Counted from the first letter of the stretch, positions 5,126 through 34,696 are shown. The stretch is DNA of 40,818 bases from Desulfovulcanus ferrireducens (GCF_018704065.1 NZ_JAGUQP010000022.1:6615-47432), one strand, 5' to 3'. Notes: generated from the letters alone by a model not told the origin. Numbers and translations: made by a program.

Positions 5126-5229
5126 ATAGGCGTTCAGTCATCAGCTTGCAGCTTTCCTTTATCTTGTTGTTGGCTTACTGAATACTGACCTTTGACCACT
5201 GTTCGCTTGCAAGGAAAAAAACACCAGTT

Positions 5230-15084: not shown

Positions 15085-15162
15085 ACACTTCCTCCTCTTT
15101 TTGGGGATGGGTATCTTAAGTTTATTGGCCTTGTCTGCTGGTTTAGTCTTTTTTTAATACAG

Positions 15163-15480
15163 GAGCCTGTGGCCAAACCTTTTTATCAACTTAATTTCCA
15201 TAGTTTATTTCAATCCTGGTTTCTTTCATGCTGTATAAGTACCTGGACCTGTTCTCAAAACTTGCTTGCGGACAGAGCATAATGGGATACTTTGGGTAAA
15301 AAAATATTCTTTTATTATCGATAGTTATGGTCAGTATCGCAAAATATTTAGCCCATTCATCCCGATGCTCTGTTCTTCCGCAAGTATCACTAAGATTGGG
15401 TTACCCAAGCCGTTTGTAATGCATTTCAGAAACCAAGACTTTCAATCAGCGGCTAAAAATGGGGGTTTGGCCACAGACTC
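15163..15480. mobile_element. MITE-like inverted-repeat element, copy A (about 318 bp)
   Basis: The ends are inverted: CCTGTGGCCAAACC at left and GGTTTGGCCACAG at right. Inner arms also pair (CTTGCGGACAGAGCAT at ~15264-15280 with ATGCTCTGTTCTTCCGCAAG at 15364-15383), so the whole element can fold as a long imperfect hairpin. It encodes nothing credible. It ends 7 bp before the stop of the exported-protein gene. AGGAG occurs at both boundaries and could be a target duplication. The rest of 15085-15487 is the leader of the TPR gene. Confidence 0.8.
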
Positions 15481-18905: not shown

Positions 18906-19083
18906 ACAAAGTGTAAAATATTCTGACACAAAAAAACACAAATTATTTTTTTCATCCCAAAATTTTTAGAAAAAAACTGGTTTTTCAAAAGGTTAGGTCT
19001 TTTATTTTTGGCATGGCTATTGCCTAATAATTGTGAGGGCTTCGCTCCATATTTAAGTATATCTGACAAGAGAAAGTTATTGT

Positions 19084-20769
19084 ATGCAGGAACAAATTAT
19101 TCATGATGAAAATTACTATCGTAGTCTGACCAGAAATATGGTCATATTAATTATTGTGGCTGCTTTTACTCCTCTAATTTTGATTAATGGTATTATTGGA
19201 TATAAATTTAATACATCCTATAAAGAAAAAGTCATAGCTCATTTAAAAGAGATGGTGGAAAAACATAAACAAAGTATTGATTCGTTTTTGAATGAAAAGT
19301 TATCTGATATTTTGGTTTTATCTGAATCATATTCATACGATAAGTTTTCAAAAAATGAATTTTTAGCGAGAAAATTACACATATTAAAACAAGAATACGG
19401 ACAAGTGTTTGTAGACTTGGGAGTTGTAAATGAGCAAGGGATACAAATGGCTTATGCTGGCCCTTTTAGACTGGCCAGGGCAGATTATTCTAAGGCTAAG
19501 TGGTTTAAGGAAGTTTTAATAAATAAATTTTATATTAGCGATGTATTTTTAGGTCTTAGGGGACTTCCACATTTTATTATCGCCGTTCTAAAGGAGGAAA
19601 ATGGTCAAAAGTGGATTTTACGAGCCACAATTGATTTCGTAGCTTTTAATAATTTGGTGGGGAATATTCGCATTGGTAAAACAGGATTGGCCTATATTTT
19701 AAATAGACAGGGAGAGTTTCAGACCAAGCCGCGGGTAACTCTGTCTTTTGATCAAGAGTTTTACAGAACATTAGTGTCCCATGTCCGCGCGGAGAATCTG
19801 GTTTATTTTCATCATATTAAAAATGAGATGGGTGATGAAACCATCTATCTTTTGACGCCTTTAAAAAAAGGTAATTGGGTCCTGGTTTTTCAGCAGGCTG
19901 ATGCCGATGCCTTTTCAGATCTCTATCAGACCAGAAATATCTCTCTGCTACTTCTAGCCATTGGCGGATGCTCTATTGTATTTATTGCCATTTTTTTATC
20001 CCGAAAAATGGTCAAACAGATCCGCAAAGCAGACCTGGAAAAGGAGATGACGAATGAGCAGGTTATCGAGGCTGGTAAGTTGGCTTCTTTGGGAGAACTG
20101 GCTGCCGGTATTGCCCATGAGATAAATAATCCTGTGGCTATAATGGTTGAGGAGGCGGGTTGGATTGAGGATCTTTTAGAAGACGAAGACTTTAAACAGA
20201 GTGAGAACCTGGAAGAGTTTATACGAGCTTTGAAGCAGATCAAAACCCAAGGGGCCAGATGCAAAGAGATTACGCACAAGCTCTTGAGTTTTGCGCGCAA
20301 GATAGATTCGAGGGTGCAAAGCCTGCAAATCAACGATTTAATAGACGAAGTCGTTGCACTGTCTGAGAAAAGGGCCAGGTATAATTGTGTGCAGATTGAA
20401 ACCAGACTCACTCCTGCCCTGCCTAAAATTAATGCTTCGCCTTCGGAGATGCAGCAGGTTCTTTTAAATTTGATAAACAATTCTCTTGATGCCATTGAGC
20501 CTAAAAAAGGAGGCAAGATCAGCATTACCAGCAGACGCGAGGGAGACTACGTGGTTATAGCCGTGGCTGACACCGGAAAGGGAATTCCCAAGGCCAATTT
20601 GCAGCGTATTTTTGAACCTTTTTTTACGACCAAGCCCGTGGGTAAGGGCACGGGCCTGGGCCTGTCCATTTGCTACGGGATAATTAAAAAAATGGGTGGT
20701 GAAATTACGGTTAACAGTGCCGTAGGTGTAGGCACAACATTTCATATAAAGATACCAATAAACAAATAG
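19084..20769 (+). CDS. Membrane histidine kinase with Cache-type extracytoplasmic sensor
   Basis: 561 residues. Membrane segments lie at ~19-40 and ~285-306. The ~245 residues between them look like a double-Cache ligand domain ([20 protein letters not shown], then [13 protein letters not shown]). The HisKA H-box is [14 protein letters not shown] with His345. The N box is [15 protein letters not shown], and the ATP-binding G boxes are DTGKGIPK and [14 protein letters not shown]. There is no HAMP or PAS domain between the membrane and the H-box. It starts a run in which three lone receivers follow within 12 bp or overlap, so they are probable phosphate acceptors. Confidence 0.94.
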
Positions 20770-20780
20770 GAGGGATGGAT

Positions 20781-21215
20781 ATGGCCATTAACTTGCTTTT
20801 AGTCGATGATGAAGAAGGCTTTGTGACCACCATGACTAAAAGGTTGGCTAGAAGGGGGTTTCAGGTGGAATCTGCCCTTAGCGGTCAAGAAGCTTTAGAA
20901 AAGATTAAGAGAATGCCTTTGATAGATGTGGTAATTCTGGATGTAAAGATGCCAGGCATGGATGGCATCGAGACCCTGCGAGAAATCAAAAAAGAATTTC
21001 CCTTGGTGGAAGTGATCATGCTGACCGGTCATGCCACAGTAGAATCAGCAATTGAGGGCATGAAATTGGGTGCTTTTGATTACTTAATGAAGCCGTCTGA
21101 TCTGGATCAGCTTATAGCCAAGATCGAGGAGGCAAAAGACAAAAAATTAAAACACGAACAAAAGATTATTGATGCTCATATGAAGGAAATTACATCCAGA
21201 AAATCGTGGGATTAA
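20781..21215 (+). CDS. Single-domain response regulator 1
   Basis: 144 residues from the ATG at 20781. AGGAGGG lies directly against the ATG at 20775, which makes 20781 the better start. One receiver domain: acidic pair VDDEEG, phosphorylated Asp in VVILDVKMPGMDG, Thr in MLTGHAT, Lys in YLMKPSD. No output domain; ~25 charged helical residues follow it. Closely similar to the third receiver (LVEV.MLTGHA, EGMKLGAFDYL), so these two are probably duplicates. Confidence 0.93.
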   Translation: MAINLLLVDDEEGFVTTMTKRLARRGFQVESALSGQEALEKIKRMPLIDVVILDVKMPGMDGIETLREIKKEFPLVEVIMLTGHATVESAIEGMKLGAFDYLMKPSDLDQLIAKIEEAKDKKLKHEQKIIDAHMKEITSRKSWD

Positions 21216-21219
21216 AGCC

Positions 21220-21636
21220 ATGCAAAAAAATGATAAAGACACCCTTCATATTCTTCTTGTAGATGATGAGCAGGGGTTTGTGGACGTTTTATCAAAAAGG
21301 CTAGCCCGCAGGGGAATAAGCGTCCGTAAGGCTTTAAGCGGGACAGAAGGTATACAGGCCTTGCGCAAACAGGATTTTGACCTGGCTGTGCTGGACCTGA
21401 AAATGGAAGATATGGATGGGCTAGAAGTTTTGAAAATATTTAAAAAAATGGCTCCGGGTATGCCAGTGATCATGCTCACCGGACATGGTTCAGAACAGGC
21501 TGCCCGTGAAGGATTGGCTTTAGGTGCTTTTGATTACTTAATGAAGCCATGTGCTTTTGAGGAATTGATAAGCAAAGTCCGCTCAGCAACCAGGAACAAA
21601 GCCGCTGAGAAAGATGGGGAGGAGAATGATGTCTAA
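21220..21636 (+). CDS. Single-domain response regulator 2
   Basis: 138 residues, one receiver: LLVDDEQGF, Asp in LAVLDLKMEDMDG, IMLTGHGSE, YLMKPCA. The usual Pro-Gly after the phosphorylation site (MPGMDG) is replaced by MEDMDG, which sets it apart from the receivers on either side. It starts 4 bp after receiver 1 and overlaps receiver 3. No DNA-binding or enzymatic output is present. Confidence 0.92.
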   Translation: MQKNDKDTLHILLVDDEQGFVDVLSKRLARRGISVRKALSGTEGIQALRKQDFDLAVLDLKMEDMDGLEVLKIFKKMAPGMPVIMLTGHGSEQAAREGLALGAFDYLMKPCAFEELISKVRSATRNKAAEKDGEENDV

Positions 21637-22045
21637 ATTTTCTATCCTGATCGTAGATGATGAAAAGGATTTTCTCGACACCCTGACCAAGAGGCTTCGG
21701 CGCAGAAATTTTGATGTTCAAGGAGTGACCAGCGGTGAGCAGGCCCTGGAATATTTGACTAATGATCCCATGGATATTGTGATTTTGGACGTTAAGATGC
21801 CCGGTATGGATGGCATCTCTGTTTTACGGGAGATAAAAAGGTGCTTTCCCCTGGTGGAAGTGTTCATGCTTACTGGCCATGCCAGTCTTGAAGCTGCAGT
21901 AGAGGGTATGAAACTGGGAGCGTTTGATTATTTGCTAAAGCCTGTGGGCCTGGATGAGCTCTTGTTTAAAATGGAGGATGCCTATCAAAAAAAGATTTTA
22001 CAGGAAAATAGCAAGGTGGGAGGGGGATGTGTGGCAACTTGGTAA
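21629..22045 (+). CDS. Single-domain response regulator 3
   Basis: 138 residues from the ATG at 21629, with GGGGAGG about 6 bp upstream (an ATG three bases earlier also fits). Receiver motifs: LIVDDEKDF, VILDVKMPGMDG, MLTGHAS, YLLKPVG. The gene overlaps receiver 2 by 8 bp. The tail after ~125 is short and Gly-rich. Closest in the window to receiver 1. Confidence 0.92.
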   Translation: MSKFSILIVDDEKDFLDTLTKRLRRRNFDVQGVTSGEQALEYLTNDPMDIVILDVKMPGMDGISVLREIKRCFPLVEVFMLTGHASLEAAVEGMKLGAFDYLLKPVGLDELLFKMEDAYQKKILQENSKVGGGCVATW

Positions 22046-22093
22046 ATAGTGAATGGTATTAATTGTAGACTATCAAGAGGAGGAAAATAGAAG

Positions 22094-23341
22094 ATGAAAA
22101 GACTTTATCAGGGACTTATGGCTGCGGCCAAGGCTCATGCCAGGTGGGACTATGAGACTTCTATGAATATATTAAAGGACAAAAGAAAACTGTGTATTCT
22201 GGGCATAATGCTTTTACCCATCATCCTGGGGTCCATTGCTTTTGCCACTGACCTGCCGACTGTTTTGGGTGGCAAAAAGGCTTATGCCCCTGCTTTTTAT
22301 ACGCCATTCATTTTTTTGGTATCTATTCTCATTGGCCTTTGTGCCGGTCTTATTACCGGCTGCATTGGCGCTGGAGGTGGATTTATTATTACCCCTGCCT
22401 TGATGAGTGCTGGTATCAAAGGAATATTGGCCGTGGGCACAGACCTTTTTCATATTTTTGCCAAAGCCATTATGGGTACAGCTGTACACAAAAAATTAGG
22501 CAATGTATCCGTTGGGCTGGCAGTGGCCTTTTTAGCTGGCTCCATTGGCGGAGTTTTAGGGGGGGGAATTTTAAACAGGTTTATTTATGAACTCAATCCG
22601 CTCTTAAGTGATGTGTTTATCAGTATTGTCTATGTTCTTTTGCTTGGATTCTTGGGCAGTTATGCCATGATTGACTTTTTAAAATCGCGTAAAAGCGATA
22701 TTGGTGGGGATGTGCATGGCGGTCCTTCTACTGAGCCTGGGCTACCAGCCAGGTTGCAAAAGGCCCATATCCCCCCCATGATCACTTTTGATGAGGATTT
22801 AGTTCCCGGAGGCAAGAAGATTTCCGCCTGGTTTGTGGCCATGTGCGGATCTATTGTTGGTTTTGTGGCCGCGATTATGGGTGTTGGGGGTGGCTTCCTA
22901 ACCTTCCCCATGTTTGTCTATATCCTGGGGGTGTCTTCTTTTACTACCGTAGGCACGGATATCCTACAGATTATCTTTACTGCCGGATTTGCTTCTATCA
23001 GCCAGTATGCTATTTATGGTTTTATTTTCTATACCTTGGCTATGGGCATGCTCCTAGGCTCTCTTTTGGGTATTCAGATCGGAGCTTTGACTACTAAAGT
23101 GGTCAAAGGCGTCTATATCCGCGGCTTCTACGCATTGGCCATTCTTTCAGGGTTCGTGAACCGTCTTTTTGCCTTACCTGGAAAATTGGGAGAAATGAAG
23201 ATTATCCCAATATCTCCAGGCACAGCTGAGACATTGACCATGATCGGTAATTGGGGGTTCTTTGTGGTCATCTCAATTTTTGCCATCTGGGTTATCGGAA
23301 CATTTTTCAAAAAAATAAAAGTACTACGCGGGGAGGCATAA
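22094..23341 (+). CDS. TauE/SafE-family permease
   Basis: 415 residues with about eight to ten membrane segments in two halves. Each half carries the Gly-rich family motif (GCIGAGGGFIITPALM in the first, GVGGGFLTFPMFVY in the second). A ~55-residue soluble loop (~200-255) separates them, and ~35 residues precede the first membrane span. Members export or import sulfite, sulfonates or related anions. In a sulfate reducer a sulfur-oxyanion or organosulfonate substrate is plausible, but the sequence does not decide. GAGGAGGAAAATAG precedes the ATG. Position directly after three receivers suggests phospho-signalling control of transport. Confidence 0.9.
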   Translation: MKRLYQGLMAAAKAHARWDYETSMNILKDKRKLCILGIMLLPIILGSIAFATDLPTVLGGKKAYAPAFYTPFIFLVSILIGLCAGLITGCIGAGGGFIITPALMSAGIKGILAVGTDLFHIFAKAIMGTAVHKKLGNVSVGLAVAFLAGSIGGVLGGGILNRFIYELNPLLSDVFISIVYVLLLGFLGSYAMIDFLKSRKSDIGGDVHGGPSTEPGLPARLQKAHIPPMITFDEDLVPGGKKISAWFVAMCGSIVGFVAAIMGVGGGFLTFPMFVYILGVSSFTTVGTDILQIIFTAGFASISQYAIYGFIFYTLAMGMLLGSLLGIQIGALTTKVVKGVYIRGFYALAILSGFVNRLFALPGKLGEMKIIPISPGTAETLTMIGNWGFFVVISIFAIWVIGTFFKKIKVLRGEA

Positions 23342-23344
23342 CTC

Positions 23345-24049
23345 ATGTTAATTAAAGATAAAAAGCATTTTAAGCTAGGATTAACTTTATTGGTGTTCTT
23401 TTTTGCGGTGCTCTATTATATGTTTACACCCTCTTTTAATGGTCAAAATGCCTTTCATGCCTCGGACAACCTGTTTAATACCATTGCCAAGGGCTCGACC
23501 AATTATTTTCCCCAGTTAAGAGATATGAACAAGCCATTTTCGGGGCATAAGATTGATGTGACTATAACTCTAACTGATGAACTAAGTAATAAGGCCCAGG
23601 TTATGTTATCCAGGATTGGCGTGGAAAGCCAGGCCAGAGGGCAGGAGTTAAATGTCCGGGGAGATCTGGGCAGGCTCATTGAACAGGTTTTAGAAGACGC
23701 TCAGAATATGTTTGCCAACAACGACCAGGCAGTGAAAGCGAAATATACTTTGAATGGAAAAGAAACCTTGTATATCTGGTGGAAGCTGCTTAAAGAACTC
23801 GATAAGGAACTTAAGCTGCAAAAAGATTTTAAGGCCGCAAAATTAATCTCAGAAGTGGTCAAGCGGGGCGTGGAAGTAGGATATAATTTTTATGGGATCC
23901 AGGCTCGAAGTGCAAAGGAAAAGGCCGGAGTCCTGACTTTTGCCCTGATTTTTTATGTGATCTATACGTTGTGGTTTGGGTATGGTATCTTCTTTGTTTT
24001 TGAAGGGATGGGACTTGAGATGAGTTCAGGGGCTAAAAAAGAAGTCTAG
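23345..24049 (+). CDS. Two-TM protein with extracytoplasmic domain, unknown family
   Basis: 234 residues. Membrane segments lie at ~10-28 and ~198-222, so residues ~30-195 are predicted outside the cytoplasm. That part is helical, with DVTITLTDELSNKAQVMLSR and KLLKELDKELKLQKDFKAAK as the clearest stretches. I do not recognise the fold. The ATG lies 3 bp after the permease stop, with GGGGAGGC as its ribosome site inside the permease gene, so it is tightly coupled and may be a permease partner. An inverted-repeat element (copy B) follows 20 bp later. Confidence 0.8.
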   Translation: MLIKDKKHFKLGLTLLVFFFAVLYYMFTPSFNGQNAFHASDNLFNTIAKGSTNYFPQLRDMNKPFSGHKIDVTITLTDELSNKAQVMLSRIGVESQARGQELNVRGDLGRLIEQVLEDAQNMFANNDQAVKAKYTLNGKETLYIWWKLLKELDKELKLQKDFKAAKLISEVVKRGVEVGYNFYGIQARSAKEKAGVLTFALIFYVIYTLWFGYGIFFVFEGMGLEMSSGAKKEV

Positions 24050-24067
24050 TTTTTTTAAAACGTAGAA

Positions 24068-24152
24068 GAGTCTGTGGCTAAACCTTACTCAGCGGACCAC
24101 TTTTCATAATTTTTTCAAATCTGGTAGTCAAAATGAGGTTTGGCCACAGACT
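24068..24152. mobile_element. MITE-like inverted-repeat element, copy B (about 85 bp, internally deleted)
   Basis: The ends GTCTGTGGCTAAACC and GGTTTGGCCACAGAC are near-perfect inverted repeats. Bases 24101-24118 are identical to 18 bp of copy C (32173-32190), and the right end also matches copy C with two differences. The middle of copy C is absent here. It lies between the two-TM protein and the PEP-synthase-like gene. Confidence 0.8.
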
Positions 24153-24185
24153 TTTAATGTTTAGAGAGCGTGGAAGTCATAAGGT

Positions 24186-26795
24186 ATGGCGGGATTCGAT
24201 TTTTTTAAGAAAATTTTTTCCAAAGAAAAAAAAGACCAAAAACTTTCTCCGGAAAGGACCAGGCAGTTGCGACTTAAATTCAAGGCCCGCTATTATAGTT
24301 TTAAACAACTTTTGGGAGCCAATAACAAGGCCTTGGAAATTATGTCAGAATTAGAAGAGGCCTTGCATGGTTGCAGACCTTTCGGCATGACCTTTGTCCG
24401 CTCCAGATGCACATTGGTTTGCACAAATGTATATACAATGGTTCAAAACCTATGTCAGCTGGCACCAGGCAAATATGATGATTTAAAGGTGGTTTTTCAT
24501 GAACTAAACACCAGGATAGACAATATTCTCAGGGAAAGAAAGATTGGAAAGGGCAAAAAACCGATACTATTTCTGGATGAGATTGATAAGAGTTTTGCCC
24601 ATGAAGCGGGTTCTAAAATGGCTAATCTTGGGGAACTGAAGAATAAACTTTCCTTCAATGTCCCTGATGGATTTGTGATTACTGCCTCGGCTTATGTTCG
24701 TTTTCTGGAAAAAAATAATTTATTGGATGAGATTGCACGGATGCTTCAAGCAACACCCATTGAGCGGACAGAGAAACTTTTTGAATTGTGTTCTCAGATT
24801 CAGAATATGATTTTAAAGGCCTCTTTGCCGCAGGACCTTGAAGCCGCCATATTTGATGCTTATGCCAGGTTGGAGGAAAAATGGGGAAGTGGTCTGAAAG
24901 TATCGATGCGTAGTAGTGCTCTGGGTGAGGATTCGGCAGAGACCTCTTTTGCCGGTCAGTATCGTTCAGAGTTAAATATTTCCAAACAAAGCCTTATACA
25001 GGCCTATAAAGATGTTGTAGCCAGCAAATATACGCCCCAGGCCGTATTATACCGTTTTAGCCTGGGTTTAAAAGACGAAGACGTGGCCATGTGTGTGGGG
25101 TGTATGCCCATGGTCAATGCCCGCTCTTCCGGCGTCATGTATTCCATGAATCCTACTAATTTTGAGGACAAACGCATCCATATCTCTTCTACCTGGGGTG
25201 TTGCCAAAGCTATTGTGGACGGTCTTGTTGAACCGGATATGTTTTTCATTGCCAGAGACCCTGAACTCCGTATTGATAAGGCTGAATTAGGAGCAAAAAA
25301 GCTAATCTACCGTTTAGTTCCTGATGAGGGAGTAATGCGTGAGCAAGTCAGTGAGTCAATGCAAAAAAAGTTTTCCATTTCCAAGAAAGAAGCTCTTGCT
25401 CTGGCTCGTTTGGCCCTGGCTTGTGAAGAACATTATGGGTTTCCACAGGATATGGAGTGGAGTATTTCTGAAGATGGACAGGTTTATATTTTACAAACCA
25501 GGCCGCTTATACAAAATTTGATTGAGAATATAGATACAAAGCTGGAAGATATACCTGCTAAACCCTTGTTTACAGGAGGCCAGACAGCAGCGTCAGGAGT
25601 CGGTTTGGGAGAGGTCTACAAAGTTGAAAAGGATGTAGACCTGGTGCTCTTCCCTGAAGGAAGTATCCTGGTAGCCAGGAATTCGTCGCCAAGGCTAGCC
25701 ATGGTTTTACCCAAATCTTCCGGGGTTATTACCGAATATGGTAGCGTAACCGGACATCTGGCCAATGTTGCACGTGAATTTAATGTGCCTGCCCTGGTTG
25801 GAGTCAAAGGGCTCATGGATAAGTTAAAACAGGGAGAAAAAATAACCTTAGATGCAGATTTGAGAGCTGTTTTTCCAGGCAAGGTGGATATGTTAACTTG
25901 CAAGAGAGAAGATGCTAAAAAATTCAATCAAAATTATCCGGTCTATAGAACTTTAAAAAAAGTTTGCCAATATATTGTACCTTTAAACCTTTTGGAGCCT
26001 GAAGATATTGAATTTAAACCTTCTTATTGCCGGACCCTGCATGATATTACCAGGTTTGCCCATGAAAAGGCGGTCATAGAGATGTTTAATTTTGGCCGGG
26101 AGCATGATTTTGCTTCATTGGCCCCTAAGCAGCTTAAGTCCATCGTGCCTATGCAGTGGTGGGTCATTGATTTAGATGATGGGTTCAAGGAAGGTGTGCA
26201 GGGAAAGTACGTGCATTTGAAGGATATCCGTTCTGTGCCCATGCTTGCCCTATGGCGGGGTATTGTGGCTGTGCCCTGGGAGGGCCCACCCCAATTGGAC
26301 AAGCATGGCTTCATGTCGGTGCTCATGCAGGCCACGACCAATCCCAATCTGGTTCCTAGTCTTAGGTCTGATTTTGCCATGCGAAATTATTTTATGATTT
26401 CCAGAGATTTTTGTCACCTTCAGTCAAGGTTTGGTTTCCATTTTTCCAGTATTGAGGCCTTGGTTGGTGAGCGGAGGCAGGAAAATTACATTCGCTTCCA
26501 GTTTAAGGGTGGAGCAGCTGATCTCAGGCGACGCAAAACGAGGGCGGAATTTGTTGGCCAAATATTGGAAGAGTATGGTTTTGAGGCCAAAGTCAGAGAA
26601 GATGCCCTGTTTGCCCGCATAGACCGCTTTGAGCGCAAGTTTATGGTTAGCAGGCTTAAAATTTTAGGTTACCTGCTAATCCACACCAGGCAACTCGATA
26701 TGATCATGGGCAACAGAAATAGTCGTGAATATTACTGGCGGAAAATGATTCGGGATATTGATGAGAGGATTTTAACTAATTCTTTGACCCACTAA
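24186..26795 (+). CDS. PEP-synthase-like protein: ATP-grasp plus phosphohistidine domains, no PEP-binding barrel
   Basis: 869 residues. Residues 1-125 are basic and unassigned. Residues ~128-445 form the PEP synthase/PPDK ATP-binding domain (LGELKNKLSFNVPDGFVIT, SMRSSALGEDS, FAGQYRSELN, YILQTRPL). Residues ~465-570 form the swivelling phosphohistidine domain (GSVTGHLANVAREFNVPALV, with His524 in the usual place). Residues ~590-869 do not look like the PEP-binding TIM barrel of true PEP synthases and have no motif I can name. The phosphate from ATP probably reaches His524 and then an unknown acceptor. Rifampin phosphotransferase is a precedent for changed acceptor domains, with a different domain order. 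Its 3' end overlaps the convergent glycerate kinase gene by 24 bp. Confidence 0.88.
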   Translation: MAGFDFFKKIFSKEKKDQKLSPERTRQLRLKFKARYYSFKQLLGANNKALEIMSELEEALHGCRPFGMTFVRSRCTLVCTNVYTMVQNLCQLAPGKYDDLKVVFHELNTRIDNILRERKIGKGKKPILFLDEIDKSFAHEAGSKMANLGELKNKLSFNVPDGFVITASAYVRFLEKNNLLDEIARMLQATPIERTEKLFELCSQIQNMILKASLPQDLEAAIFDAYARLEEKWGSGLKVSMRSSALGEDSAETSFAGQYRSELNISKQSLIQAYKDVVASKYTPQAVLYRFSLGLKDEDVAMCVGCMPMVNARSSGVMYSMNPTNFEDKRIHISSTWGVAKAIVDGLVEPDMFFIARDPELRIDKAELGAKKLIYRLVPDEGVMREQVSESMQKKFSISKKEALALARLALACEEHYGFPQDMEWSISEDGQVYILQTRPLIQNLIENIDTKLEDIPAKPLFTGGQTAASGVGLGEVYKVEKDVDLVLFPEGSILVARNSSPRLAMVLPKSSGVITEYGSVTGHLANVAREFNVPALVGVKGLMDKLKQGEKITLDADLRAVFPGKVDMLTCKREDAKKFNQNYPVYRTLKKVCQYIVPLNLLEPEDIEFKPSYCRTLHDITRFAHEKAVIEMFNFGREHDFASLAPKQLKSIVPMQWWVIDLDDGFKEGVQGKYVHLKDIRSVPMLALWRGIVAVPWEGPPQLDKHGFMSVLMQATTNPNLVPSLRSDFAMRNYFMISRDFCHLQSRFGFHFSSIEALVGERRQENYIRFQFKGGAADLRRRKTRAEFVGQILEEYGFEAKVREDALFARIDRFERKFMVSRLKILGYLLIHTRQLDMIMGNRNSREYYWRKMIRDIDERILTNSLTH

Positions 26796-28118
26796 AACCA
26801 GATGAATGTCCATGACATTGGTCAAAGTAGGCCCGGTTATTATTAGCTCGCGTGTGCGGTTAAAAAAAGTATAGGCATCATGCTCGTGGAGAAACTTTCT
26901 GGCATCAAGGTTTAATTTTTTGGCTCTGGCTGTGGTTGAACCTGTCACCATCGCGCCAGCAGCATCAGTAGGCCCGTCAGTACCATCAGTACCGGCCGAC
27001 AATATAAGGACATTTTTTAATCCTTCCAATTCCAGAGCGGCTGAGAGGGCAAATTCCTGATTGCGGCCACCGAGCCCATATGACTCGCCTAGGCTCACTG
27101 TGGTCTCTCCTCCGCTGATTACACAACAGGGAGGGGCCATTGGATGACCACTTTCTAAGATCTCTTTTGCTATACTGACATGCACACGGGCAATGTCTTT
27201 TGTCTCCCCTTCTATACTGGAACTTAAGATAAGAGGAGCATATCCTAGAGAGGAGGCAGCCCGGGCTGCGGCCAGAAGGGCTTGGCGATTGGAGGCTATA
27301 ATGTGATGGGAAACATTTTTAAAACACTCTTCGTCAGAAAATGGCGTATCAGGAATAATGCCTTTCAGGCCCTGTAAAACCAGTTGTTGCACAGATTCCG
27401 GAAGTTTGTCCCAGAGGTCATATCGAGTGAGAATCGCATGACAGTCTGCCCAGGAACTGGAATCTGCTGCTGTCGGTCCTGAGCCAATAACATCCAGCCG
27501 ATCACCAACCACATCACTGATAATCAGGCTTATTGTAGTTGATGGGTGTAGGTGACGGGCTAAGCGCCCGCCTTTAATCTGACTTAAGTGCTTGCGTATG
27601 GCATTGATTTCCTGAATATTGGCTCCGCTTGCCAGGAGAAGTCGCGTTACTTTTTGTTTGTCCTCCAGGGTAATACCTGGGGCAGGCGCAACCAGTAAAG
27701 AGCTAGCTCCGCCAGAAAGAAGAAAGAAAAAAAGGGTGTCTTTAGACCTGTGTCTATCCACAAACGCCAGAATCTCTTGGCCTGCCCTGATACTTCGTTC
27801 ATCAGGGACCGGATGGGCAGCCTCTAAAAGACGTATCTTTTTCGTGGGCAGGGTGTGGGCATCCTTTACTACTACCAAGCCACCATTAAGCCGTTCTCCA
27901 AGAAGAGATTCCACGGCCACGGCCATGGCAGCACCTGCTTTGCCAGCGCCAATGGCTACGATTTTTTTGTAAGTGTTGAGAGCATAATAGTGGGTGCCGG
28001 TTTTCAACTGGGAATCTCTATAGTTCAGGGCACCAGAAATGGCAGCCTGGGGTTGCACAGATTTAAGAGCGGCAGCGAGGATATGACTCGCATGCTGGCG
28101 TAACCTCTTTTCATACAT
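26772..28118 (-). CDS. Glycerate 2-kinase (MOFRL/GckA-TtuD family)
   Basis: 448 residues. Family motifs are intact: IVAIGAGKAGAAMA near residue 55, AAHPVPDERS, FFLLSGGASSLLVAPAPGIT, IRKHLSQIKGGRLA, ISDVVGD, and the C-terminal MOFRL part with SGGETTV, GGRNQEFAL and SAGTDGTDGPTDAAGA. It phosphorylates glycerate to 2-phosphoglycerate in the cytoplasm, feeding glycolysis near enolase. It diverges from the glycosyltransferase across a 313-bp gap. Beside a glucosylglycerate phosphorylase it would recover the released glycerate. Confidence 0.93.
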   Translation of the reverse strand: MYEKRLRQHASHILAAALKSVQPQAAISGALNYRDSQLKTGTHYYALNTYKKIVAIGAGKAGAAMAVAVESLLGERLNGGLVVVKDAHTLPTKKIRLLEAAHPVPDERSIRAGQEILAFVDRHRSKDTLFFFLLSGGASSLLVAPAPGITLEDKQKVTRLLLASGANIQEINAIRKHLSQIKGGRLARHLHPSTTISLIISDVVGDRLDVIGSGPTAADSSSWADCHAILTRYDLWDKLPESVQQLVLQGLKGIIPDTPFSDEECFKNVSHHIIASNRQALLAAARAASSLGYAPLILSSSIEGETKDIARVHVSIAKEILESGHPMAPPCCVISGGETTVSLGESYGLGGRNQEFALSAALELEGLKNVLILSAGTDGTDGPTDAAGAMVTGSTTARAKKLNLDARKFLHEHDAYTFFNRTRELIITGPTLTNVMDIHLVLVGQRIS

Positions 28119-28431
28119 AAATATGGCTCCTTTTAACCTCTTAACAGAGTTTCCGTATCTAAATTGACGCTAAAATAACCAAAGTTTTGAAGCAATAAAG
28201 CAAAATTTTTACTTTTTTACTTGTTTGTCCCGGGAAAGGCAGGGCTTACTAAAGACATTCTTTCTATTGAAACCAACAGAGCAGACGTGATAAAATAAAA
28301 AATTAGATGCGCTTGCCCTGAACTTCTTAGCTTCTTTTGTAAATTCTAGTCTTAACCTTGCTTGACACAAAGTAAATGGCTTGAGTAGTGACAACTTGAT
28401 TTTTATTTTATTATTAAAACGGGTAATCAGT
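28119..28431. promoter_or_regulatory. Divergent promoter interval of the glucosylglycerate locus
   Basis: This 313-bp gap separates divergent genes and should hold both promoters. A perfect TTGACA occurs at 28362-28367 facing the plus strand, but the matching -10 is poor. No GG-N10-GC (sigma54) element and no clear operator stood out by eye. Confidence 0.35.
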
Positions 28432-29691
28432 ATGTCTGAAAGAATAGGTTTTATTTCCACTCGCTTTGCCGGGACTGACGGCGTATCCCTGGAAGCTGCC
28501 AAATGGGCAGAGGTATTACAGGAGCAAGGCCATGTCTGTTTTTGGTATGGCGGACTTTTGGAGAGGTGGCGCAAGTTTTCTATGTGTGTTCCTGAGGCCT
28601 ATTTCAAACATCCTGCAAACGAGTGGATTAATGAACATATCTGGGGGCGTACGCATCGCTCCCCTAAAGTTACCCGCTACATCCACGACCTGGCTGAATA
28701 TCTGAAAAGCACCATTTATGATTTTGTCAAAGAGTTTGACCTCACTCTGCTCATCATTCAAAACGCCCTGGCAATACCCATGCATCTGCCCCTAGGTATT
28801 GCCATTACAGAATTTCTTTCCGAAACCGTGATGCCGGCCATAGCTCATCACCATGATTTTTACTGGGAACGTAGCCGCTTCCAGGTCAATTGTGTCCCTG
28901 ATTTTCTGGACATGGCCTTTCCACCGCGCGATTTCCATCTGCAACATGTGGTTATTAATCAGGCGGCCAGGGAAGAATTGGCATTACGTAAGGGAGTTTC
29001 TTCTCTTCTCATTCCCAATGTTATTAATTTTCATCGCCCGCCATTACCTCCTGATGAGTACTCAGCTGATCTGCGTCAGGAAATAGGTCTTTCTTCTGAT
29101 GATAAACTTATTCTGCAGCCAACCCGTGTAGTGCCTCGCAAAGGCATTGAGCACAGTATAAACCTGTTGCAACGATTAAATGATCCACGCTGTAAGCTGG
29201 TGGTTTCTCATCCGGCCGGAGATGAGGGCTCAGAGTATCAAGAACAGTTGATGGCCCTGGCCGAGTCCGTGGGAGTGGACATCCGTTTTTTTGGGGAGCG
29301 GGTCAACTATCGGCGCCATGTCAATTGTCAGGGAAAAAAGATTTACGTTTTGCACGATATCTATCAGCATGCCGATCTGGTCATTTATCCCAGCATCTAT
29401 GAAGGGTTTGGCAATGCCCTTCTGGAATCCTTTTACTTTAAAGTCCCCGTTATTGTAAACCGCTATCCTGTATGGGTGCGAGACATTGAACCTAAAGGAT
29501 TTCGCGTCCCTGTAATGGATGGTTTTATCACTCCCCACGTGGTAGAAGAGGCCAAAAAGCTTTTATACAACCACGAATATCGTCAACAACAGGTTGACTA
29601 CAACTATGAACTGGCAAAACGCTATTATAGCTATCCAGTGCTTCGCTATGGATTGCAAATATTAATTAATAACATAAAAAATCAAGTTTAA
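28432..29691 (+). CDS. GT4 glycosyltransferase, candidate mannosyl(glucosyl)glycerate-type synthase
   Basis: 419 residues from the ATG at 28432; the longer frame would need a TTG start in AT-rich DNA. The N-terminal half begins IGFISTRFAGTDGVSLEAAK. The C-terminal half has LILQPTRVVPRKGIEHSINL for the donor site and YPSIYEGFGNALLESFYFKV, the GT4 E-x7-E motif. Soluble and cytoplasmic. The setting, with a GpgS-type enzyme, a phosphomannose-isomerase cupin and a glycerate kinase, points to transfer of a sugar (mannose is my guess) to glucosylglycerate or its phosphate, as reported for the MggA/MggS enzymes of Petrotoga and Rhodopirellula. Donor and acceptor are not proven by sequence. Confidence 0.8.
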   Translation: MSERIGFISTRFAGTDGVSLEAAKWAEVLQEQGHVCFWYGGLLERWRKFSMCVPEAYFKHPANEWINEHIWGRTHRSPKVTRYIHDLAEYLKSTIYDFVKEFDLTLLIIQNALAIPMHLPLGIAITEFLSETVMPAIAHHHDFYWERSRFQVNCVPDFLDMAFPPRDFHLQHVVINQAAREELALRKGVSSLLIPNVINFHRPPLPPDEYSADLRQEIGLSSDDKLILQPTRVVPRKGIEHSINLLQRLNDPRCKLVVSHPAGDEGSEYQEQLMALAESVGVDIRFFGERVNYRRHVNCQGKKIYVLHDIYQHADLVIYPSIYEGFGNALLESFYFKVPVIVNRYPVWVRDIEPKGFRVPVMDGFITPHVVEEAKKLLYNHEYRQQQVDYNYELAKRYYSYPVLRYGLQILINNIKNQV

Positions 29692-29709
29692 AACAAATTC
29701 TCCTCTCTT

Positions 29710-29735
29710 AAGGGGCAAGATCTAGCCCCTTTTAA
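29710..29735 (+). terminator. Probable rho-independent terminator after the first GT4 gene
   Basis: AAGGGGC (29710-29716) pairs with GCCCCTT (29725-29731) around AAGATCTA, followed by TTAATTT. The rest of the gap up to 30001 is AT-rich and without a gene. It presumably holds the promoter for the phosphorylase operon. Confidence 0.65.
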
Positions 29736-30001
29736 TTTCCTGTCTTTTCTACTTTCCCAAAATTTAACTGGCGTTTAGGATCTAGCTTTAATAGATATGG
29801 GAAATCAATATTTTTAATTGGTTAGAAGCATTGTAAAGCAATCATTGCACCTAATCCTATACAGTTAATCTTTTGCTTTCCTGAAAATTACTCCAGAATA
29901 ATTAAAAAATCTTACCACCTCTTGAGTTAAAGTAAAAAACAGGTTAATTTTAAAACCACACTATATTTAGAATAAGCCAGATATCTTATGGAGAATAGAA
30001 C

Positions 30002-31741
30002 ATGTGGAGTTCTACTGACGTCTTGAAACAACGATTAGAGAAAAGGCTGCAATTTCTTTATGGAGAAAAATATAAAAAGCGGCTCATGAAACGTATTGGA
30101 CTCTTGTTAGCCCGGTATGACTTTTTAAGAGAACAATGTCGTCCTGACAAACTGTGGGACGAAAAGACTTGTCTTCTTATCAGTTATGGCGACATGGTGA
30201 GAAAAAAGGCAGAAAAGCCACTTCTTACCCTGCACCGTTTTTTACAGGATTATGTGAAGGGGACCATTGAATGTCTCCATATTCTGCCATTTTTCCCCTA
30301 CAGCTCTGATGACGGCTTTTCTGTTATTAATTATAGAAAGGTTGATCCTGCTCTGGGAGAATGGGAGGACATAAAAAAAATCAGCCAGGACTTCCGCCTC
30401 ATGGTGGATCTGGTTTTAAACCATGTTTCCCGTTGTTCAAGTTGGTTTCAGGATTACATTGGTGGAATTGCGCCAGCCATGGATTATTTTATGGAAGTTG
30501 ATCCTGGCGATGATCTTGCTCAGGTAGTAAGGCCCAGGACCACGCCTCTTCTTACCAAGGTGCAAACTGTTTATGGAAAAAAATATGTCTGGACTACTTT
30601 CAGCTCTGACCAGATGGATTTAAATTACGCCAATCCCGATGTCCTGATGGAGATGCTGGACATCCTGCTCTTTTATATCTCAAAAGGGGCCAGGATTATT
30701 CGCTTGGACGCCATTGCCTATTTATGGAAAATGATAGGGACACCGTGCATTAACCTGCCGCAAACCCATGAAATAGTGAAGTTGTTCAGAGACATAACAG
30801 ACTATTTGGCGTCTGGAGTTCTTCTGTTGACAGAGACCAACCTGCCGCACTCGCAAAACATCAGCTATTTTGGGGAGGGAGACGAGGCCCATCTGGTATA
30901 TCAATTCAGCCTGCCTCCTCTTTTACTCTATACACTGCACCGAGGTTCAGCCAGGCATTTGCGTGAGTGGGCGGCCGAACTCACTGCCCCTGGCCCCCGA
31001 TGTACTTACCTCAATTTTACAGCCTCTCACGATGGGATAGGTGTGCGGCCTTTAGAGGGATTAGTGAAAGAAGAAGAGATTGAAGAACTGGTTCAGACAA
31101 TCCGCTCTCTTGGCGGACTTGTATCCTGTCGTTCTTGCGCAAATGGCGTGGAAAGACCCTATGAGTTGAATATTACCTATTTTGACGCTCTAAAAGATCC
31201 CAAACAACCCCAGGATGTGAATCGGCAGATAGATCGTTTCATTTGTTCCCAGACCATTATGCTAAGTTTGCAGGGTATCCCTGCCATTTACTTCCATAGC
31301 CTCATGGGCACTGGCAACAACTATGAAGGAGTGCAAAAGACCGGTCAAAACCGGGCTATTAACAGAGCACGCTTTCAGGATGAGGAGTTAAGAAAGCTCC
31401 TCTCAGACCCTAAAACGGTAACCTCCAGAGTATTTTCCAACTATATCGACCTGTTAAGAAAACGGAGCCAGGAGCCTGCTTTCCATCCCGACGCCGTTCA
31501 GGAGGTTCTGGATTTGCCAGATGAACTGTTTGGGGTTGTCAGAAGGGCAATTTTGAGAAACGGGGAAACGAGAGATATTTTTTGTCTTCACAATGTGAGC
31601 GATAAAGAGCAGCGTATTCGTCTTCCTGATTTAGATGGTACGCTGAAGGGTAAAAAAATGAAAGATATTATAAGCAATATTGTGATGGAGGACGATGTTT
31701 ATCTCAGTCCCTATCAAAGTTGCTGGTTGAAAGAGCGTTAG
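30002..31741 (+). CDS. GH13_18 sucrose-phosphorylase-like enzyme, probable glucosylglycerate phosphorylase
   Basis: 579 residues. The GH13 catalytic set is present: nucleophile Asp236 in RIIRLDAIAYLWK, acid/base Glu278 in LLLTETNLPH, and Asp344 in TASHDGIG. LHILPFFPYSSDDGFSVINY is typical of the GH13_18 subfamily. Members release glucose 1-phosphate by phosphorolysis from sucrose, glucosylglycerate or related compounds. With a glycerate kinase and a GpgS gene nearby, glucosylglycerate is the most likely substrate: glucosylglycerate plus phosphate to glucose 1-phosphate plus glycerate. The fold may need ~60 extra N-terminal residues that are seen here. First gene of a run that continues with the cupin. 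Confidence 0.88.
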   Translation: MWSSTDVLKQRLEKRLQFLYGEKYKKRLMKRIGLLLARYDFLREQCRPDKLWDEKTCLLISYGDMVRKKAEKPLLTLHRFLQDYVKGTIECLHILPFFPYSSDDGFSVINYRKVDPALGEWEDIKKISQDFRLMVDLVLNHVSRCSSWFQDYIGGIAPAMDYFMEVDPGDDLAQVVRPRTTPLLTKVQTVYGKKYVWTTFSSDQMDLNYANPDVLMEMLDILLFYISKGARIIRLDAIAYLWKMIGTPCINLPQTHEIVKLFRDITDYLASGVLLLTETNLPHSQNISYFGEGDEAHLVYQFSLPPLLLYTLHRGSARHLREWAAELTAPGPRCTYLNFTASHDGIGVRPLEGLVKEEEIEELVQTIRSLGGLVSCRSCANGVERPYELNITYFDALKDPKQPQDVNRQIDRFICSQTIMLSLQGIPAIYFHSLMGTGNNYEGVQKTGQNRAINRARFQDEELRKLLSDPKTVTSRVFSNYIDLLRKRSQEPAFHPDAVQEVLDLPDELFGVVRRAILRNGETRDIFCLHNVSDKEQRIRLPDLDGTLKGKKMKDIISNIVMEDDVYLSPYQSCWLKER

Positions 31742-31760
31742 TGTTGGATGGAGGGCAACT

Positions 31761-32138
31761 ATGACGGCTCAGATAACAAAAGAAGAATTTATCCAGTTAA
31801 CCGAACGCCGTCCCTGGGGAAGTTTTACCGTATTGGCTGATGAACCAGACCACAAGGTAAAGCGGATTGTGGTCAAACCAGGCCAGAGACTTTCTCTTCA
31901 GCGGCACAAGCGCCGCCAGGAACACTGGCTGATAGTCAGGGGGGAGGCAGTTGTCACTCTTAATGACAGAGAGCTTCAACTCAGGGCGGGGGATGCGGTG
32001 GACATTGGTTGCGGAGTAATTCACCGGGTGCAAAATAAAAGGGTCGAAAATTTGGTTTTTATTGAAATTCAACTGGGAGATTACTTTGGCGAGGACGATA
32101 TTGAGCGACTGGAGGACGACTATGGTCGAGCACCTTAA
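31761..32138 (+). CDS. Single-domain cupin of the phosphomannose isomerase type II family
   Basis: 125 residues, one cupin domain. It matches the C-terminal domain of bifunctional mannose-1-phosphate guanylyltransferase/isomerase: ERPWGSFTVL, then LSLQRHKRRQEHW with the metal-binding His/Glu set, GEAVVTL, and IHRVQNK. It would interconvert fructose 6-phosphate and mannose 6-phosphate, providing mannose for a mannosylated solute. The gene is 20 bp after the phosphorylase gene, with GGAGGGCAAC as ribosome site. Its stop codon TAA lies inside the terminal repeat of element copy C. Confidence 0.88.
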   Translation: MTAQITKEEFIQLTERRPWGSFTVLADEPDHKVKRIVVKPGQRLSLQRHKRRQEHWLIVRGEAVVTLNDRELQLRAGDAVDIGCGVIHRVQNKRVENLVFIEIQLGDYFGEDDIERLEDDYGRAP

Positions 32139-32323
32139 GAGTCAGGGGCCGAACCTTACTTAAGAGGGCAAATTTTCATAATTTTTTCAATCCTGATTTC
32201 TTTCGTGCTGGTGCAAATGTCAGGACCCATCTATAGCTTGCTTGCCCAGTCCTTTGCAATTCATTCAAGAAACCAGGATTTCTAATCTGGCAGTCAAAAT
32301 GGGGTTTGGCCACAGACTCTTAA
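32135..32323. mobile_element. MITE-like inverted-repeat element, copy C (about 189 bp)
   Basis: Terminal repeats TTAAGAGTC and GACTCTTAA enclose the element, continuing inward with degenerate arms (GGCCGAACC left, GGTTTGGCC right). Bases 32186-32210 match copy A (15209-15233) with two differences. The left end overlaps the stop codon of the cupin gene. Confidence 0.82.
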
Positions 32324-32395
32324 AAGGACTAATAATTTTCTCAACCTTTATGGGCGATAACCACTTTAGGTGCTCGCTGAAACGAGGACGGGGGA

Positions 32396-32478
32396 ATGTT
32401 GTAACAGAGAAACGGTGATGGGGAGGAGCGGAGAAAAAATCCCCGATTCTTTGTTTCTTCCATTCTCCGTTTCAACAT
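32396..32478. repeat. Imperfect inverted repeat in the leader of the M20-type gene
   Basis: ATGTTGTAACAGAGAAACGG (32396-32415) faces CCATTCTCCGTTTCAACAT (32460-32478), with roughly three quarters of positions pairing. The stem would end some 5 bases before the GGGGGGAGGT ribosome site of the next gene and could affect its translation. The remaining 32324-32395 holds nothing I recognise. Confidence 0.45.
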
Positions 32479-32495
32479 CAGGGGGGAGGTGAATA

Positions 32496-33665
32496 ATGAA
32501 TGAAAAGGACTTGAGTAAAGTTCTGGAGCGGGTGAGGGGGCTTACTGCTGTACTGGAACCCTTGCGAGAGGTTCTTTTGGCCAACCTGGTTTTAATCGGT
32601 GAAATACCGGCTCCTACCTTTGGTGAACAAAAAAGAGTTTCTTTTCTGGAGGAGCGTTTTGTCGAATGTGGGTTGCAAAATTGTTCCACAGATGAACTGG
32701 GCAACGGACTGGCCATTTTGCCTGGAACAAAAGGAGATGAGACTATCCTTCTCACAGCACATGCGGACACTCCTTTTGCAGCCAATGAAGACCATACCTA
32801 TACCTTGAATTCACACCGTGTTCTTGGGCCGGGAGTTGCTGACAACAGTCTGGGACTGGCTGTTCTGGCTACTTTGCCCATCCTGCTTGAGAAATTGGAT
32901 ATTCAACTGAAAAACAATCTTCTCTTAATGGCCTCTGTACGCAATCTGGATCAGGGCAATCAGGAAGGATTGAAATTTTTTCTTGCTAACAGCAAACAAC
33001 CCATCCATGCGGCCATTGTCATTGAAGGCTCACCCCTTGGCCGGCTCAATTTCCGCTCCATGGCCTCTCTTGGCGGGATGATCACCTGTCAGATAAACCG
33101 CAAGATAAGTCAGGAGAGTGCAATTAATATTTTATGTCAGATTGTAGCGCAGCTTAATGCTATTCATCTGCCACAGGAAAACCATACTTTTTTTACCCTT
33201 GGTTCTATTGGAGGGGGGATTTCTTATAAATATCCAGCCCGCAACGGTTTTCTCAAGTTTCAGTTGCGTAGTAACTGCGACCGGACAATTGAGGAGATAA
33301 CCGGCTCCATTTATAATATTTTGGATGGCATTGCCCAGCAGCCAGGTGTGTCGGCTCACCTGAAGCAGATCGCCAGCACTAAATCAGGCGGTCTGGATTC
33401 AGGTCATCCTTTTGTCCTGCGGGCACGACAGATATTGGATGCCCTTGACATATCTCCACAGGATAGCATCTATTCTCCCATTATTTCTGCCTTTGCGGAG
33501 TACCAGGTACCGGCCCTATGCATAGGCATAACCCATGCGGAAAATGTCAACTATGTGGATGAATTCATTGAGATTGAACCCATTATGAAAGGAGTTGCAC
33601 AGTTAATTGGTATTCTTATGGCAATTGACGGAGGTCATCAGTGCAGAACATCAACAGCTGGTTAA
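32496..33665 (+). CDS. M20-family metallohydrolase-like protein with apparent loss of the catalytic Glu pair
   Basis: 389 residues. The first zinc ligands are present: HAD (His89, Asp91) in LLTAHADTPF and Asp116 in GPGVADNSLG. A later EG (Glu177) and a C-terminal His in ITHAENVNYVDEF are also in place. Where M20 enzymes have the Glu-Glu general base and ligand (about residues 149-151) this protein reads SVRNLDQGNQEG. A lid-type domain (~190-300) is retained. M20 members are peptidases, deacylases or related amidohydrolases. If the Glu pair is truly absent, it may be a binding or regulatory protein, or use another base. Ribosome site GGAGGTGAATA. It overlaps the GpgS gene by 25 bp, so it belongs to the solute operon. 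Confidence 0.8.
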   Translation: MNEKDLSKVLERVRGLTAVLEPLREVLLANLVLIGEIPAPTFGEQKRVSFLEERFVECGLQNCSTDELGNGLAILPGTKGDETILLTAHADTPFAANEDHTYTLNSHRVLGPGVADNSLGLAVLATLPILLEKLDIQLKNNLLLMASVRNLDQGNQEGLKFFLANSKQPIHAAIVIEGSPLGRLNFRSMASLGGMITCQINRKISQESAINILCQIVAQLNAIHLPQENHTFFTLGSIGGGISYKYPARNGFLKFQLRSNCDRTIEEITGSIYNILDGIAQQPGVSAHLKQIASTKSGGLDSGHPFVLRARQILDALDISPQDSIYSPIISAFAEYQVPALCIGITHAENVNYVDEFIEIEPIMKGVAQLIGILMAIDGGHQCRTSTAG

Positions 33666-34612
33666 AGTCAAATACTTTTCATCATAGTCAATTTAAAGAT
33701 ATTTCCCGGCTCGTAGAAGAAAAGGAGAAACAAGGCTTAACCATTTCTTTGTGTATTCCAACTTTGAATGAAGAAAAGACCATTGGCAAGGAAGTGGTGA
33801 TTTTTAAATCAGAGCTGATGGATCGTTACCCATTGATAGATGAATTGGCTGTAATTGATTCCGGCTCTACAGACAGAACCCTGGAAGTGGCGGCCTCCTT
33901 TGGAGCGGATGTGTATCTGTCAGCAGAGATACTGCCTCAGATGGGCGCCAAGCGCGGTAAAGGTGAAAATTTATGGAAGGCCATTTATCAACTAAAGGGC
34001 GATATTATTGTCTATGTTGATGCGGACATAAAAAATATCCATCCCCGTTTTGTCTATGGCCTGGTTGCACCCCTCATTTATCGTCGCGAGATCAAGTATG
34101 TGAAAGCCTTTTACGATCGCCCACTGGCCCTTTCCGGTCAAATCAGGCCATCGGGAGGCGGTCGGGTAACAGAGATCCTGATCCGGCCTCTATTTTCTTT
34201 ATTTTTCCCCGAACTGACTGCCCTGGTGCAACCTCTTTCTGGAGAATATGCGGCCAGACGGGAGATCCTGGAAAAGATCCCTTTTCCGATAGGTTATGGA
34301 GTGGAGACATCCCATCTTATTGATGTCTATTCAGAATGGGGCTTGGATGCCCTGGCCCAGACCGACCTTGACCGCAGAGTCCACCGCCACCAGACTACAC
34401 AGGCTCTCGGCAAGATGGCCTTTGGCATTCTGCGCGTGTTTTTTAAACGGCTTAAACAAAGAGGGATCGTGGAGTGTTTACCTGAGCTGCCCACTTTTTT
34501 GCGTCAGTTTCAGGCCCATGGCGAACAACATGAACAGATTGTCTATGAAATATTTGAGGAAGAAAGGCCTCCCATGATTGAACTAGAGGTCTACCGCAAC
34601 CAACATAAATAA
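33641..34612 (+). CDS. gpgS: Glucosyl-3-phosphoglycerate synthase (GpgS, GT81 family)
   Basis: 323 residues with a GTG start, chosen because GGAGGT lies just before it and the N terminus fits the family. GT-A motifs: ISLCIPTLNEEKTIG, AVIDSGSTDRT, AKRGKGENLWKA and the metal-binding DAD (127-129) in IVYVDADIKNI. The acceptor region PLSGEYAARREILEKIPFP and GYGVETSHLID is typical of GpgS. It joins glucose from a nucleotide sugar to 3-phosphoglycerate, the first step to glucosylglycerate, in the cytoplasm. Some relatives use glycerate directly or mannose, which sequence alone does not exclude. It overlaps the M20-type gene by 25 bp. Confidence 0.9.
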   Translation: MQNINSWLKSNTFHHSQFKDISRLVEEKEKQGLTISLCIPTLNEEKTIGKEVVIFKSELMDRYPLIDELAVIDSGSTDRTLEVAASFGADVYLSAEILPQMGAKRGKGENLWKAIYQLKGDIIVYVDADIKNIHPRFVYGLVAPLIYRREIKYVKAFYDRPLALSGQIRPSGGGRVTEILIRPLFSLFFPELTALVQPLSGEYAARREILEKIPFPIGYGVETSHLIDVYSEWGLDALAQTDLDRRVHRHQTTQALGKMAFGILRVFFKRLKQRGIVECLPELPTFLRQFQAHGEQHEQIVYEIFEEERPPMIELEVYRNQHK

Positions 34613-34617
34613 ACATT

Positions 34618-34680
34618 CACCCTGTTAAAAAGTGTTAGCACTGGCTTTGCCAGCCCAGCTACACTGGATTTAGCAGGGTG
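34618..34680 (+). repeat. Structured intercistronic hairpin between gpgS and the second GT4 gene
   Basis: CACCCTGTTAAA (34618-34629) pairs with TTTAGCAGGGTG (34669-34680) with one G-U. Smaller nested stems lie inside (CTGGC-TTT-GCCAG at 34641-34653). No T run follows, so it is more likely an RNA-stabilising or processing stem than a terminator. Confidence 0.55.
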
Positions 34681-34696
34681 AGCACTAACTATCATT

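Follow-up and report, generated by a model that had tools for sequence, protein, structure and literature searches.

A cassette joining a TauE-family permease to a sensor kinase, three lone receivers and a PEP-synthase-like protein in Desulfovulcanus ferrireducens: a candidate for phosphorylation-gated sulfur oxyanion transport

The movement of thiosulfate, sulfite and related anions in sulfur-respiring microbes is largely unsettled at the gene level, and the TSUP proteins abundant in these microbes are without assigned function (PMC5840216). The closest described system is the "nitrate cluster" of two Desulfovibrio species (DVU0251-DVU0245 and Dde_0597-0605), encoding a TauE protein, a hypothetical protein, PtxB, a kinase, a receiver, a phosphoenolpyruvate (PEP)-synthase-like ("PEPS-like") protein and a phosphatase; in transposon fitness profiling its inactivation resulted in nitrate resistance (Korte et al. 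2014, PMC4001038). Here we analyse a cassette of similar composition located at 19084-26795 in a stretch of the Desulfovulcanus ferrireducens genome (GCF_018704065.1 NZ_JAGUQP010000022.1:6615-47432; 40,818 nucleotides (nt), below called the window). Our proposal, held at close to but not quite an even chance, is that it encodes a phosphorylation-gated permease for a sulfur oxyanion, most likely thiosulfate or sulfite, in bacteria respiring with dissimilatory sulfite reductase.

Korte et al. observed one common phenotype for single mutants in the permease, receiver and PEPS-like genes of the nitrate cluster. Isolated DVU0246, 0247, 0250 and 0251 mutants grew alike with and without 100 mM nitrate; for DVU0250, the results of pooled and isolated mutants disagreed. 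The G20 mutants were mildly sick on thiosulfate, and the authors proposed a leaky thiosulfate transporter, with nitrate protection resulting from blocked entry (PMC4001038). In the open literature we found nothing on these genes beyond that paper. The cassette consists of seven open reading frames, all on the + strand and at the positions described by the sequence-only reading. The gaps between the genes, from the kinase to the PEPS-like gene, are 5, 4, -23 (an overlap), 48, 3 and 136 nt. The features are as follows (aa, amino acids).

19009..19024, + strand: sigma-54-like (-24/-12) site TGGCATGGCTATTGCC, 75 nt 5' of the kinase start codon (motif scan including relatives)
19084..20769, + strand: membrane sensor histidine kinase, 561 aa, periplasmic dCache, HisKA and HATPase_c (Pfam; orthologues in relatives)
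20775..21215, + strand: RR1, lone receiver, 146 aa (Pfam; receiver comparison among cassettes)
21220..21636, + strand: RR2, lone receiver, 138 aa (Pfam; receiver comparison among cassettes)
21614..22045, + strand: RR3, lone receiver, 143 aa, 23-nt overlap with RR2 (Pfam; gap measurement; receiver comparison)
22094..23341, + strand: TSUP/TauE permease, 415 aa (PF01925; alignment of relatives)
23345..24049, + strand: TM2, partner membrane protein, 234 aa (conserved residues; TauE adjacency)
24066..24155, strand not applicable: imperfect palindrome in the TM2-PEPS gap, a repeat copy (recurs elsewhere in the window)
24186..26795, + strand: predicted PEPS-like ATP-dependent phosphotransferase, 869 aa (Pfam; alignment; predicted structure)

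The cassette shares with the nitrate cluster a TauE-family permease, a membrane protein, a histidine kinase, a lone receiver and a PEPS-like enzyme devoid of the PEP barrel. For sequence comparison we used locus L208, which has the nitrate-cluster gene order and was equated with the DVU/Dde cluster by matching domains and gene order, not by the DVU/Dde sequences; the phosphatase was seen in L209. The PEPS-like proteins of L208 and the window align end to end with 32% identity, but the L208 permease (397 aa) belongs to another TauE subfamily (hhalign probability of 88% only) and its membrane partner gives no alignment to TM2. The nitrate cluster also adds a PtxB binding protein, a DUF169 protein and a dual-specificity (DSP) phosphatase, which are present in L208/L209 and absent from 19084-26795, and it has a single receiver and a HAMP/PAS kinase instead of a dCache one. 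Because the permease is only remotely alignable, the membrane partner unrelated and the PEPS-like protein this distant, comparison of the sequences places the cassette as a sister of the nitrate cluster, not its orthologue. Orthology with DVU0251-0245, assumed at first from the matching gene list, was rejected since the L208/L209 clusters with that order are only remotely related. The sequence-only reading had seen here an undescribed system; it is not wholly so, because a described sister exists, although the genes of that sister are only remote relatives. The cassette is a variant of a cluster kind which is already known but functionally undescribed.

We examined the surroundings of the TauE/TM2 genes in 40 stretches belonging to the same order, together with 80 named loci of the species collection, and removed duplicates. 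Because the loci were located via TauE or TM2, with the 80 best TauE matches taken from the collection scan, the counts carry a selection effect. The genes, taken by the sequence-only reading for one signalling and transport module, are not scattered in relatives: TM2 lies directly 3' of TauE in 110/110 loci with enough flank, a receiver occurs within 2.2 kb upstream in 70/100, a PEPS-like gene within 3.2 kb downstream in 59/94, and an orthologous kinase (50-62% identical, 5' of the receivers) in 41/94. The complete set is present in 32 of the 80 full-flank loci. Since this arrangement recurs in other orders and phyla, it cannot be ascribed to chance. Receivers and PEPS-like genes tend to co-occur or to be jointly missing (43 loci with both, 20 with neither, 13 and 4 discordant; Fisher p 8e-7, shared ancestry uncorrected). 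This co-variation and the invariable adjacency of the permease and TM2 genes indicate a TauE-TM2 core, with a receiver/PEPS-like relay module which tends to be gained or lost as a whole.

The distribution of the pair provides a tie to sulfur respiration, which the sequence-only reading had suggested from the permease family and which now gains support. Among 296 genomes sampled evenly across Desulfobacterota, TM2 was found in 71, and dsrB exceeded the curated cut-off in 69 of these 71 (in one further genome dsrB is in pieces) versus 145 of the 296 overall (p 8e-24, phylogeny uncorrected; 26 families). dsrB also exceeded the cut-off in 15/15 further genomes reached via the named loci, including Bacillota, Nitrospirota, Myxococcota and a metagenome-assembled genome of Riflebacteria. 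Thus, in Desulfobacterota the TauE/TM2 pair occurs almost exclusively in genomes encoding dissimilatory sulfite reductase; since approximately half of the dsrB genomes lack it, the pair is accessory. The main exception to this rule is a Desulfovibrionales genome (G053, locus L096), 100% complete, which has TauE-TM2 and gives no dsrB match; its PEPS-like gene is apparently broken, being recovered as two tblastn pieces.

The permease matches PF01925 with 119.7 bits (cut-off 32.6), and the aligned members of its subfamily are 58-79% identical to it. TM2 matches no Pfam family above cut-off. It has hydrophobic segments at both ends, two membrane segments being read from sequence hydrophobicity alone, and its conserved residues are K6, D41, N45, K49, S51, E177, N181, Y204 and Y207. 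For neither protein did a sequence search of the PDB give a convincing match, and in 28 genomes no window-type TauE/TM2 pair adjoins PtxB.

The PEPS-like protein, called PEP-synthase-like in the sequence-only reading, retains the tested catalytic residues in its ATP-grasp and phospho-histidine domains, but it cannot be a standard PEP synthase because it is without the pyruvate/PEP barrel: Pfam gives no match to this barrel, and the predicted secondary structure of the C-terminal part is not of the barrel type. Its plan includes a helical N-terminal domain (22-118), an ATP-grasp domain (124-442; PPDK_N at 140-442), a phospho-histidine domain (459-570, with His524; PEP-utilizers mobile domain at 489-558) and a C-terminal domain (~578-869). 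K144, RSS 242-244, E248, D249, D422, E424, W425 and H524 are unchanged in 44/44 aligned homologues, and region 124-570 superposes on PEP synthase and rifampin phosphotransferase structures with Z ~40. The C-terminal domain (578-869) is predicted with a mean pLDDT (predicted local distance difference test) of 87.8, and its best hits among solved structures were a Foldseek E of 0.05 and a VIA Z of 5.4 over 135 residues, a missing match which does not prove a new fold. Its invariant polar residues (H619, D620, R623, H626, H752, N767, R786, Q836 and D838) form a pattern such as a phosphate-acceptor site would have.

The two-component parts required for a relay are present, namely a HisKA/HATPase kinase (dCache_1 46-242, HisKA 336-406, HATPase_c 453-559) and receivers with a phosphorylation site. 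Each of RR1-RR3 matches PF00072 (E 2e-31 to 3e-30), Pfam finds no output domain in any of them, and in RR1 the acidic pocket, the phospho-acceptor Asp and the Lys are all retained. In 20 three-receiver cassettes, the window included, the best between-genome match of a receiver is the receiver of the same position in 60/60 cases, and the mean between-genome identity is 58-62% for the same position versus 44-52% for different ones. Due to this positional fidelity, the sequences mark the three receivers as old, separately kept, position-specific lineages, not recent duplicates.

The claim that this relay acts on proteins and not on promoters stands in part. It is indirectly favoured by the missing output domains, by the co-variation of receivers with the PEPS-like gene and by the phenotype shared by sister-cluster mutants; however, the sigma-54-like site preceding the kinase brings promoters in at the operon top. 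In relatives, such patterns (one mismatch at most) occur 5' of the kinase gene in 12/38 cases versus ~1.3% in shuffles (p 5e-14) and 5' of TauE in 14/113 (p 3e-12), these statistics coming from related and hence not independent sequences; none was found 5' of TM2 (0/110) or RR2 (0/34). Since the sites are enriched before the kinase and absent before TM2 and RR2, a sigma-54 promoter probably drives the operon from its head, and transcription control and the lone receivers would then represent two separate layers. Gene pairs for NtrC-type kinases and regulators adjoin many TauE-TM2 cassettes; the window's own pair is at 37445-40350, 10 kb downstream. Scans for sigma-70 promoters and terminators gave site numbers not above chance, and Rfam had no match within the cassette.

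The strongest argument that TSUP permeases, receivers and PEPS-like proteins work together is that they are repeatedly paired with unrelated partners. A TSUP permease, a lone receiver, a PEPS-like protein and a kinase recur in L208, in L188 and elsewhere in the D. ferrireducens genome (L216:6533-17129, C12), where the order is TauE, Alph_Pro_TM protein, PEPS-like, receiver, Usp, kinase and NtrC, and the PEPS-like protein is 32% identical to the window's. In this genome, each of the two full-length PEPS-like genes adjoins a TauE gene. L188 represents a further arrangement, with TauE2 and a DUF4881 lipoprotein accompanying the PEPS-like system; it was considered as an equivalent of the nitrate cluster and rejected for its unfit gene order.

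We suggest that TauE and TM2 may form the transport unit and that a periplasmic signal would be perceived by the dCache kinase, which would set the phosphorylation state of one or more of the three receivers. The receivers would have proteins as their targets, the PEPS-like enzyme being the most likely one, and would set its activity, possibly via its helical N-terminal domain. The enzyme would transfer phosphate from ATP to His524, and the swivelling histidine domain would pass it to an acceptor held by the C-terminal domain. The phosphorylated acceptor would then activate or silence TauE-TM2, opening or closing it for a sulfur oxyanion, while the operon itself would be transcribed from the sigma-54 promoter. 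We infer every step of this signal flow, including the substrate, the transport direction, the receiver-enzyme contact, the acceptor and the gating, from domains and gene linkage.

Several observations weigh against this scheme. TauE-TM2 stands alone in 20/80 full-flank loci, so transport can work without the relay, and in L198, L202 and L207 PEPS-like paralogues have kinases and receivers, but no TauE, in their vicinity, so the partner of this enzyme may be receivers in general. The phenotype evidence comes from a remote paralogue, and the substrate of a TSUP protein is not readable from sequence. The D. ferrireducens genome also encodes a SulP-family transporter, therefore TauE-TM2 need not be its only sulfate route; TauE-TM2 as a sole sulfate transporter, which we considered, is weakened by this protein.

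Among the other explanations, the best surviving one, improbable in our estimate yet a serious contender, keeps the same signalling with transport turned outwards: TauE-TM2 would be an exporter or "safety valve" for sulfite or another toxic sulfur intermediate, which the relay would open whenever the dissimilatory pathway becomes congested. The strict dsrB association fits sulfite handling, and the TauE/SafE family is best known for exporting sulfite and organosulfonates (Weinitschke 2007, as cited by others). However, the sister-cluster mutants, though paralogous, suggest uptake both by their protection from external nitrate, ascribed to blocked entry, and by their mild thiosulfate sickness.

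It is likewise unlikely, and we rank it just behind, that receivers and PEPS-like protein constitute a signalling unit of their own, based on a second messenger or protein phosphorylation and feeding respiration or sigma-54 regulators, with the permease as an ungated co-transcribed effector or signal supplier. The frequent occurrence of TauE-TM2 without the relay and the TauE-free paralogues, some of them beside Tmc-like redox complex genes (L207 and L200), agree with this explanation; the nitrate-cluster mutants sharing the permease phenotype and the several distinct TSUP subfamilies adjoining PEPS-like genes, including both full-length copies of this genome, speak against it. In L207:10288-16767 and L200 the PEPS-like, kinase and receiver genes neighbour a DivK-like receiver as well as the Tmc-redox-complex-like genes, for which Pfam confirmed the iron-sulfur/CCG domains of one protein in L207 only.

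That the PEPS-like protein is a metabolic enzyme of the PEP synthase or antibiotic phosphotransferase type in an incidental neighbourhood is very improbable, since, despite its structural match to both, it has no PEP/pyruvate barrel, scores far below all the curated cut-offs (PEP_synth 329 vs 740; RIF_Ptrans 212 vs 999), differs in domain order from rifampin phosphotransferase and keeps a conserved linkage to receivers. On the whole, the sequence-only interpretation of the locus is partly supported.

The 136-nt gap between TM2 and the PEPS-like gene holds a long imperfect palindrome (z -5.1). Copies of this palindromic intergenic repeat (arm GTCTGTGGCCAAACC) lie at 24066-24155, 32137-32323 and 15149-15479, with 4 arm matches in the window versus 0.3 expected; because of this recurrence, the wide spacing looks like a repeat insertion. 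Elsewhere in the window, region 26772-36166 encodes a glycerate kinase, a mannosylglucosylglycerate-synthase-like glycosyltransferase, a sucrose-phosphorylase-like GH13 protein and a glucosyl-3-phosphoglycerate synthase (above cut-off), and looks like a glucosylglycerate-type compatible solute cluster. In region 14-6543, the gene for an HlyD-type secretion adaptor follows that for a very long protein (1703 aa) with RTX/cadherin repeats.

A permease pair whose occurrence in several phyla follows that of dissimilatory sulfite reductase makes a strong candidate for the anion transport in question. A receiver-to-phosphotransferase permease switch, if true, would be a new mode of two-component action and would explain the nitrate resistance that loss of the permease, the receiver or the PEPS-like gene confers alike in the sister cluster, which bears on the control of oil-field souring. 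More tentatively, and with clearly less confidence than for the cassette itself, we suggest a recurrent transport class in sulfur-respiring bacteria of several phyla, where distinct TSUP permeases with dedicated partners would be gated post-translationally by lone receivers via a phospho-histidine transferase that depends on ATP and carries a new acceptor domain. If true, such a class would represent a dikinase-based counterpart of the transport control of the phosphotransferase system (PTS) type.

Comparison with the known families shows where the cassette departs from each of them. As in TSUP (TauE/SafE) proteins, the PF01925 profile spans the whole permease and both glycine-rich motifs are present, but the window protein represents its own subfamily, marked by a conserved N-terminal extension (AHARWD), a conserved loop PPMITFDEDLVPGGK and the obligate TM2 neighbour. 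With the dikinase superfamily (PEP synthase, PPDK and rifampin phosphotransferase), the PEPS-like protein shares the ATP-grasp and swivelling phospho-histidine domains with their catalytic residues, but its third domain is a C-terminal one of ~290 residues with no solved-fold match, and the helical N-terminal domain is extra. Rifampin phosphotransferase has the order ATP, drug-binding and histidine domains, the last being C-terminal, whereas in the 869-residue PEPS-like protein the histidine domain is followed by the C-terminal one. A single receiver domain with an intact phosphorylation site is common to RR1-RR3 and the lone receivers of the CheY/DivK type; unlike these, the cassette has three consecutive ones, each of an old lineage tied to its position.

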